Positions 36,631 to 39,505 of a stretch of DNA of 64,000 nucleotides are shown here, piece by piece (the stretch's first letter is position 1; each line of letters opens with the position of its first letter). Where the stretch lies: contig NZ_KQ031382.1 in the NCBI RefSeq assembly GCF_000384335.2, positions 806,001 through 870,000 on the forward strand, in the 5' to 3' direction. Both the position numbers and the translations under genes were made by a program. The notes beneath the pieces were generated by a model. It ran no database searches and had not been told where the DNA came from. It was given only the letters and a program-made list of their open reading frames with translations. Source of the DNA: Hyphomicrobium sp. 99 (lineage in GTDB: Bacteria; Pseudomonadota; Alphaproteobacteria; Rhizobiales; Hyphomicrobiaceae).

Positions 36631-39021
36631 TCAGCCGCAGCGGGAATAATCGCAATTCGCGCAGGTCCAGCAGCCTTCGATATGTCTCAAAGCCCGCTCT
36701 CCGCATTTGGGGCAAATGCGGGCCGAGGCGAAGGGAGAGACATGCTCCGAGGCGGCGTCCTCTCGTGGCCCCGCATCGGCAGCGATGCGCTGCACAGCTG
36801 CAATGGGCTGGAGTTTTGAATTGATGTCGTCGTCGCGGGTGAGAAACCCGATGTGGATCATGTGCTGCTCGATGACGTCGCCGATGGCCGCCAGCAGGCT
36901 CGGAACGTAACGCCCGCCCATCCACCGGCCACCTTCGGGATCGAACACGGCCTTTAACTCTTCGGCAACGAACGTGACATCGCCCCCGCGGCGGAACACG
37001 GCGCTGATCATACGCGTCAGCGCGACCGTCCAGGCGTAGTGCTCGAGGTTCTTCGTGTTGATGAAGACCTCGAAGGGCCGCCGCCGTCCGTCGCGGACGA
37101 TGTCGTTGATCGTGACGTAAAGCGCATGCGCGCTCGCCGGCCATTTGATCTTGTAGGTTACGCCTTCGAGCGCCGCATCGCGCTCGAGCGGCTTCGTCAT
37201 ATAGACGACATCGCCGGACTTCGCCGGATCTTCGATGGCTCTAACCATCGGTGCGCTTTGAATAGCTGAAATTTCGTCGATCGATCTCGCCCCTTCACCT
37301 GAGGCTTTATCCGCACGCGAGAGAACGGCCCCGGTAATCGCATTGGGCCGATAGGTCGTGCAGCCTTTGAGCCCGAGATCGAAAGCCTCGGCATAAATGT
37401 CTTCGAATTGCTCGAAGGAAATGTTCTCCGGACAATTGATCGTTTTCGAAATGGCGCTGTCGACATAGGGCTGCAGCGCCGCCTGCATCGCGATGTGCTG
37501 GACAGGCGATAGCGTATCGGCAGTGACGAACGCTTCGGGCAGGGGCGCATCTTCTCCCGCCAGCGCGCGAAACTTCTGGTGCGCGTAGTCCTCGACTGTC
37601 TCTTCGGTCGCCGTCTGCCCCTCTCCGAGGACACGGCGTCGATAGACGAAATCGAAAACGGGTTCGATGCCGCTAGAAACGTTGCCAGCCAGAAGCGAGA
37701 TCGTGCCAGTCGGAGCGATTGACGTGATGCAGCCGTTGCGAATGCCATTCGCCGCAATCGCATCACGCACATCGGCATTGAGCCGCAACACGTTCGGACG
37801 CGCTTGGAAAGCCTCCGCATCGTAAAGCGGAAACGCGCCTTTCTCGGCGGCGAGAGCCGCACTCGCCCGATAGGCGGCATTCTGGATCGCAGACATCCAT
37901 TCGGCAGCCTTTTCGCGCGCAGCCGGACTGCCATAGGGGAGGCCGAGAAAAATCAGAGCATCCGCGAGCCCCGTGATGCCGAGACCGATGCGGCGCTTCG
38001 CATGCGCTTCCCGAGCCTGCGCTTCGAGGGGATAGCGCGAGATATCGATGATGTTGTCGAGAAAGCGAACGGCAGTCGCGACGCGCGCTTCGAGCTTTGC
38101 GCGGTCGATCCTGGCCGCAGGCGTAAAGGCATGCTCGAAGAGGCGCGCGAGATTGATCGACCCCAAAAGACAAGCGCCATAGGGAGGAAGCGGCTGCTCC
38201 CCGCACGGGTTGGTCGCCGAGATCGTTTCGCAATATTCGAGATTATTCGCGGCGTTCACCCGGTCGATGAAGATGACGCCGGGCTCCGCGTAATCGTAGG
38301 TCGCGCGCATGATCTTGTCCCAGAGAGCGCGCGCTTCGACAGTCTTGTAAACCTTGCCTTCGAAAACGAGATCCCACGGCGCGCCACGCTTGACGGCATC
38401 CATGAACGCGTCGGTCACCAGAACCGACAGGTTGAAATTCCGCAGCCGCAGCGAATCCGCCTTCGCCGCGATGAACGTCTCGATATCGGGATGATCGCAC
38501 CGAAGCGTCGCCATCATCGCGCCGCGTCTCTGACCCGCCGACATGATCGTCCGGCACATCGCGTCCCAGACGTCCATGAAGCTCACAGGGCCCGATGCGT
38601 CCGCGCCGATGCTTTTGACCGCCGCGCCTTGCGGACGAAGCGTCGAAAAATCATGACCGATGCCGCCGCCGGCCTGCATCGTCAGCGCCGCCTCTTTGAC
38701 GCTTTCGAAAATGCTCGTGAGATCATCCTCGATCCGGCCGAGAACGAAGCAGTTGAAGAGCGTGACGTTCCGGTCGGTCCCGGCCCCCGCAAGGATGCGC
38801 CCCGCCGGCTGAAATCCGAAGTCGGACATCGCGTCGTAAAAGGCGCGGGCCCACGCCTCTTGGCTCCCGGCTTCCTCGACCGACGCCGCAGCCACCGCGA
38901 TGCGCCGGAAGGTATCTTCCAGGGTCTTGTCGGCCGCCACCGTCGACGATCCGGCAAAGCGGTACTTCCGCCGCCAGATAGCGTCCGAAATAGCCGGAAG
39001 ATCTGAAAAAATCGCACTCAT
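36631..39021 (-). CDS. nrdJ: Class II (B12-dependent) ribonucleotide reductase
   Basis: A 796-residue adenosylcobalamin-dependent ribonucleotide reductase that makes deoxyribonucleotides with or without oxygen. Active-site features are NCFVLGRIEDD, the radical/substrate block CGEQPLPPYGACLLGSINL, and APTGTISLLAGN. The redox-active C-terminal tail is rich in Cys (CPKCG, CWTCANC, SRCG). No ATP-cone is present at the N terminus. A consensus sigma-70-like promoter lies 50-80 bases upstream, and its -10 is covered by a perfect alphaproteobacterial LexA box, so DNA-damage induction is predicted. No other nrd gene is in the window. Confidence 0.93.
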   Translation of the reverse strand: MSAIFSDLPAISDAIWRRKYRFAGSSTVAADKTLEDTFRRIAVAAASVEEAGSQEAWARAFYDAMSDFGFQPAGRILAGAGTDRNVTLFNCFVLGRIEDDLTSIFESVKEAALTMQAGGGIGHDFSTLRPQGAAVKSIGADASGPVSFMDVWDAMCRTIMSAGQRRGAMMATLRCDHPDIETFIAAKADSLRLRNFNLSVLVTDAFMDAVKRGAPWDLVFEGKVYKTVEARALWDKIMRATYDYAEPGVIFIDRVNAANNLEYCETISATNPCGEQPLPPYGACLLGSINLARLFEHAFTPAARIDRAKLEARVATAVRFLDNIIDISRYPLEAQAREAHAKRRIGLGITGLADALIFLGLPYGSPAAREKAAEWMSAIQNAAYRASAALAAEKGAFPLYDAEAFQARPNVLRLNADVRDAIAANGIRNGCITSIAPTGTISLLAGNVSSGIEPVFDFVYRRRVLGEGQTATEETVEDYAHQKFRALAGEDAPLPEAFVTADTLSPVQHIAMQAALQPYVDSAISKTINCPENISFEQFEDIYAEAFDLGLKGCTTYRPNAITGAVLSRADKASGEGARSIDEISAIQSAPMVRAIEDPAKSGDVVYMTKPLERDAALEGVTYKIKWPASAHALYVTINDIVRDGRRRPFEVFINTKNLEHYAWTVALTRMISAVFRRGGDVTFVAEELKAVFDPEGGRWMGGRYVPSLLAAIGDVIEQHMIHIGFLTRDDDINSKLQPIAAVQRIAADAGPREDAASEHVSPFASARICPKCGERALRHIEGCWTCANCDYSRCG

Positions 39022-39065
39022 CAGGTGCCCGGAATATGGGTATTAAAAGCTCATTTTCAATTCAT

Positions 39066-39080
39066 GTTCACTATATGTTC
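39066..39080 (-). promoter_or_regulatory. LexA (SOS) box of nrdJ
   Basis: On the reverse strand this reads GAAC-ATATAGT-GAAC, a perfect match to the direct-repeat SOS box GAAC-N7-GAAC (GTTC-N7-GTTC) of alphaproteobacterial LexA. It covers the -10 hexamer of the nrdJ promoter, the position expected for repression. Confidence 0.8.
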
Positions 39081-39098
39081 CAAAAGCTCTTCTGTCAA
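39070..39098 (-). promoter_or_regulatory. nrdJ promoter, -35 TTGACA and -10 TATAGT
   Basis: On the reverse strand a perfect -35 TTGACA (39093-39098) and a -10 TATAGT (39070-39075) are separated by 17 bases. The predicted start of transcription is about 40 bases before the nrdJ ATG. It is the best promoter I can see in the window. Confidence 0.75.
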
Positions 39099-39237: not shown

Positions 39238-39471
39238 CTACGCCAAATGAGATTTCACAACTAGGCGCCAGCGAACAGTGCCTTGATTGGCGGTATGCTG
39301 GTGATGGTTTTGCGGGGGAATGTTCTTCCCTTTCACGAAGGTGGCGCTCACGCCGCAGCCCTCGCATCGATAAATACCAGAATCGGGTGTTAGAGTATTG
39401 GGTTGATGGAGTTGATCGAACTCGGGGCCATCTTGCTGAGCGAGATACTTCTCGTACTTGTAATAAGCCAT
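39238..39471 (-). CDS. Small zinc-ribbon-like protein
   Basis: A 77-residue protein that starts MAYYKYEKYLAQQ and has one CEGC pair (YRCEGCGVSATFVKG). The block NTLTPDSGIYRCEGCG and PPQNHHQHT with a C-terminal TVRWRLVV matches a small conserved family that I recall from proteobacteria (GIYRCEGCG...PPQNHHQH). The Cys pair plus the NHHQH histidines could bind one zinc ion. The ATG at 39471 follows AGGTGAT. Function unknown. It lies between nrdJ, whose promoter is just past its stop, and a transposase remnant. Confidence 0.75.
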   Translation of the reverse strand: MAYYKYEKYLAQQDGPEFDQLHQPNTLTPDSGIYRCEGCGVSATFVKGKNIPPQNHHQHTANQGTVRWRLVVKSHLA

Positions 39472-39505
39472 AGATCACCTGTGCTGCAGTAGCGGAAAAA
39501 TGCAG

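Follow-up and report, generated by a model that had tools for sequence, protein, structure and literature searches.

Ribonucleotide reductase (RNR) activity sets the dNTP level, which in turn affects survival and mutation rate after DNA damage. E. coli and V. cholerae are reported to induce RNR upon damage outside LexA control: LexA failed to bind an SOS-like box at V. cholerae nrdA in an electrophoretic mobility shift assay (EMSA), and the source says that the same has been reported for E. coli (PMC5963079). For Alphaproteobacteria, the LexA motif is given as the direct repeat GTTC-N7-GTTC (PMC3323433), which reads GAAC-N7-GAAC on the other strand. We analyzed a 64-kb stretch of the genome of Hyphomicrobium sp. 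99 (hereafter the window; 64,000 nucleotides) in which a perfect copy of this repeat lies over the promoter of nrdJ, the gene for a short class II RNR, and we describe below its conservation and the readings that it allows.

The short nrdJ of the window and its upstream region

The features of the locus, all on the minus strand, are as follows.

36631..39021 (-): nrdJ, short class II (adenosylcobalamin-dependent) RNR, 796 aa, with a TSCPD domain (TIGR02504, Pfam)
within 36631..39021 (-): C-terminal tail of the short NrdJ, Cys-rich and zinc-finger-like
39033..39038 (-): putative P2 -10-like hexamer CATATT
39055..39060 (-): putative P2 -35-like hexamer TTGAAA, 5 nt behind the operator; TTGAA followed by A or G in 14/16 core-clade genomes
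39066..39080 (-): putative LexA-type operator GAACATATAGTGAAC (GAAC-N7-GAAC), from sequence and conservation
39070..39075 (-): P1 -10 TATAGT, within the operator; TAnnnT in 16/16 core-clade genomes
39093..39098 (-): P1 -35 TTGACA

The short NrdJ scored 598 bits against the NCBIfam family TIGR02504 (NrdJ_Z), above the cut-off, and its Pfam matches are PF02867, PF00317 and PF12637 (TSCPD), with no Pfam match to an ATP-cone. It can be aligned with the B12-dependent NrdJ of T. maritima (1xje) and retains NPCGE and two more cysteines, which we take to be the active-site motif and the cysteine pair; judged by its sequence, the enzyme is intact-looking. Its dependence on adenosylcobalamin is predicted from family membership. 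The closest named relative is H. facile, with 88% identity over the best segment. Upstream of nrdJ, a small ORF of about 77 aa (39239-39472, minus strand) contains a zinc-ribbon-like stretch, CEGCGVSATF, and has no Pfam or NCBIfam match.

A sequence-only reading of the window had described TTGACA-N17-TATAGT on the minus strand with the repeat lying over its -10, and both elements are there as described: the 17-nt spacer spans 39092-39076, and the operator, 39080-39066, includes TATAGT and is separated by 44 nt from the nrdJ ATG (39021). Of the 16 genomes in the Hyphomicrobium core clade, 15 retain TTGAC at the P1 -35, one of them with a displacement by one base. The sequence-only reading had overlooked a second hexamer pair, TTGAAA/CATATT (P2), with 16 nt between the hexamers in the window; both are kept, 16-17 nt apart, in 13/16 core-clade genomes, and their location matches that of the promoter found in most other genera, where the -35 is TTGAC. 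A transcript from P2 would begin only a few bases before the nrdJ ATG and so would be nearly leaderless. Neither the window nor locus L093 gave an Rfam match to a cobalamin riboswitch at the gathering threshold, and the best candidate for an NrdR palindrome pair at the window's nrdJ matched 11/16 positions of a loose consensus and overlapped the direct repeat.

Conservation of the direct repeat at short nrdJ, long nrdJ, lexA and recA

The rarity of the motif is by itself no evidence, and conservation is decisive: GAAC-N7-GAAC occurs at 3 sites in the 64-kb window versus 2.63 expected, and at 134 sites in the whole 4.1 Mb genome versus 115 for the reversed control. When 21 further perfect sites of this genome were inspected in 18 stretches, chosen mostly for A+T-rich spacers, at least one site lay inside an ORF in 13 of the 18, and no known repair genes were found among the annotated neighbours. 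At G000:C3:253887-253948 (L267 1388-1449), two GAAC-N7-GAAC on opposite strands, 47 bp apart, precede a 122-aa ORF without Pfam match (start MRTYLISYDLAHPNRNQHV), a possible SOS target. Within the window, a perfect site at 345-359 on the plus strand lies about 110 bp ahead of an Nramp-family transporter gene and may be a chance match.

Among the 103 genomes of the Hyphomicrobiaceae, 102 contain a match to the short nrdJ, which is weak only in G099 and G100, leaving 100 with a strong match; the region upstream was read in 70 of these 100, the others being largely fragments. A perfect GAAC-N7-GAAC lies within 260 bp upstream of the gene in 47/70 genomes and a box with at most one mismatch in 66/70, whereas 60 dinucleotide shuffles gave means of 0.45 (maximum 3) and 8.35, respectively. 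Only a gap of 7 is enriched; each of the nine remaining lengths between 3 and 12 gave a perfect repeat in 0-5 of the 70 genomes. Four genomes have no scored box: G050 carries a perfect box at nrdJ in the opposite orientation, G085 has one-mismatch boxes further upstream than the 260-bp limit and was scored as a miss because its gene start was set too late, and G051 and G063 have no box upstream of nrdJ. The sequence-only reading had named absence of the box from close relatives as its refuting test, and such absence is not what we see: within the genus, a perfect box is present in 19 of the 21 genomes read, the exceptions being G050, in which it is flipped, and G051, in which there is none.

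When 297 genomes from across the order were scanned, 66 had a short nrdJ at E <= 1e-150, and 53 of these belong to other families; 52 of the 53 were read, and G368, in which the match begins at residue 271, was left out. These 52 genomes represent 19 other families, and the box is perfect in 12 and within one mismatch in 49, versus 0.27 and 6.5 in shuffles; the commonest form at nrdJ in this set is GTAC-N7-GAAC (23/52). Across the class, a perfect box was found within 400 bp of the gene in 9 of 80 named loci. When we placed the box on a FastTree phylogeny of the NrdJ of these 80 loci and of the window, scoring it with one mismatch allowed in the first half-site and leaving out three loci with less than 150 bp upstream, it was present in 23/23 readable rows outside the Rhodobacterales branch (window included) and in 1/55 inside, a distribution that takes 2 changes on the tree versus 20.5 with shuffled labels. 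The other 54 of the 55 rows of the Rhodobacterales branch (L019-L089) thus have a short nrdJ without the box. The idea that the box marks genomes that have the short NrdJ in addition to another NrdJ was rejected, because all 14 Rhodobacterales genomes searched encode both NrdJ and have no box. In the two Rhodobacterales for which the region upstream of lexA was read, the lexA operator is perfect.

Operators at lexA and recA served as the reference. LexA was detected in 94/103 family genomes, including that of the window, the lexA box of which is GAACGAGACAAGAAC. Of the 31 family lexA loci examined, 30 have a perfect GAAC-N7-GAAC upstream, and at the sole miss, L190, the 250-bp limit includes no more of the usual lexA promoter than its far end; all 13 lexA genes in 11 further genomes have a perfect box, and a twelfth genome checked gave no LexA match. 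At recA, the operator is GAAC-N7-GTAC in 28/30 family loci, in many of them directly behind TTGAC, and the remaining two have a perfect box elsewhere upstream. Many lexA promoters of the family have a second, imperfect operator, GTTC-N7-GTAC, and several Rhodospirillales and relatives have a second lexA operator of the form GTTT-N7-GTTC. Since the half-sites GTAC and AAAC are found in these second lexA operators, and GTAC at recA too, the imperfect half-sites of nrdJ also occur at accepted LexA targets. In form, then, the proposed SOS box at nrdJ is an alphaproteobacterial LexA operator, and the same forms stand at lexA and recA of the family.

The position of the box relative to the promoter differs among lineages. 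Of 122 genomes classified by layout, 80 have the box ahead of the -35, 15 have it on the -10 and 6 directly behind TTGAC; its layout is unclassed in 12, and 9 lack it under the stricter rule used for this classification. The sequence-only reading had suggested a search of the order for the box at the -10 of nrdJ, and its expectation stood in part: the box is widespread, and its place on the P1 -10 is confined to 15 genomes, all of the Hyphomicrobium core clade. In the layout before the -35, the distance from box to -35 is mostly 5-6 nt and nearly constant in most genera, and two or three half-sites in an 11-bp phase are present in many genera (e.g., G033 and G034). A pattern scan for this layout returned 45 sites in 44/103 genomes, and none in the reversed control; 44 of the 45 are at nrdJ and the remaining one is inside an ORF6N-domain gene, by which we rejected the idea that the layout is common to other SOS genes. 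With the operator itself common to lexA and recA, the layout is nrdJ's own and the operator is shared. The class directly behind TTGAC, which resembles recA, comprises five genomes of another family (f30) and G005, a sixth and ambiguous case. In five of seven f30 genomes inspected (L335, L340, L343, L346 and L349), a DnaA-box-like 9-mer, TTATCCACA, stands directly ahead of the nrdJ promoter.

In addition, 76/76 good-quality family genomes encode a class II RNR of greater length, about 1250-1350 aa, with the N-terminal domain PF08471 (Ribonuc_red_2_N). No perfect box was found within 600 bp of the long nrdJ at any of 30 loci, and one-mismatch sites are near the chance level (1/30 in 260 bp, 2/30 in 450 bp versus 3.5 in shuffles, 8/30 in 600 bp versus 5.1), whereas the short nrdJ read over 450 bp in the same comparison has a perfect box in 47/70 and at most one mismatch in 68/70. 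The long nrdJ was rescanned at 450 and 600 bp because NrdR-like sites lie beyond 260 bp, and the outcome was the same. Such NrdR-like palindromes (e.g., CCACTAGATGTAGTG), identified with a loose consensus, precede the long nrdJ in some genomes (among them L266, which is in G000:C3, L312 and L315).

A class I small chain (PF00268) was detected at E <= 0.001 in 17/103 family genomes, in 15 of them over the family cut-off, and none was detected in the window's genome. With classes I and II considered, the window's genome seemingly encodes two B12-dependent RNRs, and the box stands on the short one alone. A coupling of the DNA-damage response to cobalamin status is not supported in the form proposed by the sequence-only reading: since the large chain of the other RNR belongs to class II as well and no class I small chain was detected, the dNTP supply looks B12-dependent anyway, and the case for a cobalamin link special to the nrdJ switch is weak.

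Readings of the box

We consider it very probable that 39066-39080 is a LexA operator through which LexA represses the short nrdJ and from which DNA damage releases it; LexA binding, repression, damage induction and the rise in dNTPs are steps that we infer from sequence and its conservation. In the undamaged cell, LexA on GAAC-N7-GAAC would exclude RNA polymerase from the nrdJ promoter or promoters, covering the P1 -10 and abutting the P2 -35. Upon DNA damage, RecA would be activated and LexA would cleave itself, after which the short NrdJ would be made on top of the long, unboxed NrdJ, and the added dNTP supply would serve repair and translesion synthesis.

That a short, degenerate motif is matched here by chance, which the counts in the genome and the window taken by themselves would allow, has a vanishingly small probability, as the box recurs at the same gene in 20 families of the order and at a gap of 7 only; the gap-length scan and the shuffles refute it. 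The nearly fixed spacing of the sites before the -35 in most genera gives some weight to two alternatives, namely that LexA tunes or activates transcription, or that another regulator acts here. LexA bound before the -35, as the box is placed in 80 of the 122 classified genomes, might tune or aid basal transcription, with damage induction being weak; a dual activity of LexA has reportedly been seen at recA of Rhodobacter sphaeroides by Tapias et al. in 2002. We hold this tuning role to be unlikely: in the clade to which the window belongs, the box covers the P1 -10, and LexA bound at that position should be blocking. The constant spacing to the -35, the triple half-sites in an 11-bp phase in many genera and the near confinement of the layout to nrdJ (44/45 sites) would also suit a different regulator dedicated to nrdJ, such as an activator on phased direct repeats beside the -35, the likeness to LexA sites being convergent. 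We regard a dedicated regulator as quite improbable: the box moves to the spacer or to the -10 by lineage and is inverted in G050, its half-site variants are those at lexA and recA, and in many relatives the -35 and -10 look near-consensus, so that an activator should be unneeded. Conservation of an operator through changes of position and, in one genome, of orientation is to be expected of a repressor site and not of an activator site.

Several observations nevertheless count against the LexA-operator reading. The Rhodobacterales branch is boxed in 1/55 despite both NrdJ being encoded in the 14 of its genomes searched and the lexA operator being perfect in the two cases read; the layout before the -35 was found at no other SOS gene, and its nearly constant spacing and phased half-sites would also fit an activator. 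The layout is unclassed in 12 genomes, and G051 and G063 are boxless. In V. cholerae, moreover, the SOS-like box of nrdA was unbound by LexA in EMSA (PMC5963079).

Relation to known SOS and ribonucleotide reductase systems

The nrdJ box shares with the alphaproteobacterial LexA/SOS regulon a direct repeat with a 7-nt gap (PMC3323433), and differs from that regulon in that its target is a class II RNR and that its usual place among the relatives is immediately ahead of the -35. With lexA and recA of the family, it has the same half-site variants in common and, in the window's clade, overlap with the promoter. In the literature searched, we found no report that joins LexA to nrdJ, class II RNR or B12-dependent RNR and no transcript data on induction of the gene by damage; older surveys of alphaproteobacterial SOS genes may mention such a link. 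We class the short nrdJ as a predicted new addition to the LexA regulon.

DNA damage raises RNR in E. coli and V. cholerae, as is predicted here; unlike nrdJ, their nrdAB is class I and is reported to be free of LexA (PMC5963079). Control of RNR genes by a regulator and its box is also known from NrdR (PMC4409342). The NrdR system differs in that the window's nrdJ has no good palindrome and the NrdR-like ones, by a loose consensus, are at the long nrdJ of some genomes.

With a box on one of two RNR genes in 20 families, a direct SOS rise of dNTPs becomes testable by comparing the boxed with the unboxed paralogue, and a LexA-type box on the short nrdJ offers a possible reason to keep two B12-dependent RNRs. 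Yeast Rnr3 and human p53R2 are damage-inducible accessory RNR subunits, and the arrangement suggested here would be analogous, with a second RNR gene for damage and a housekeeping one for growth. On a broader proposal, for and against which we see the case as evenly balanced, Alphaproteobacteria with two class II enzymes would, outside Rhodobacterales, divide the labour, the long NrdJ serving replication and the short one having been a LexA-run damage RNR since early in the class, the counterpart of Rnr3 and p53R2 for repair and mutagenic synthesis; Rhodobacterales would have removed the short one from SOS. Rnr3 and p53R2 differ in being eukaryotic, class I and under other regulators, whereas here a whole class II enzyme is predicted to be under a bacterial repressor.
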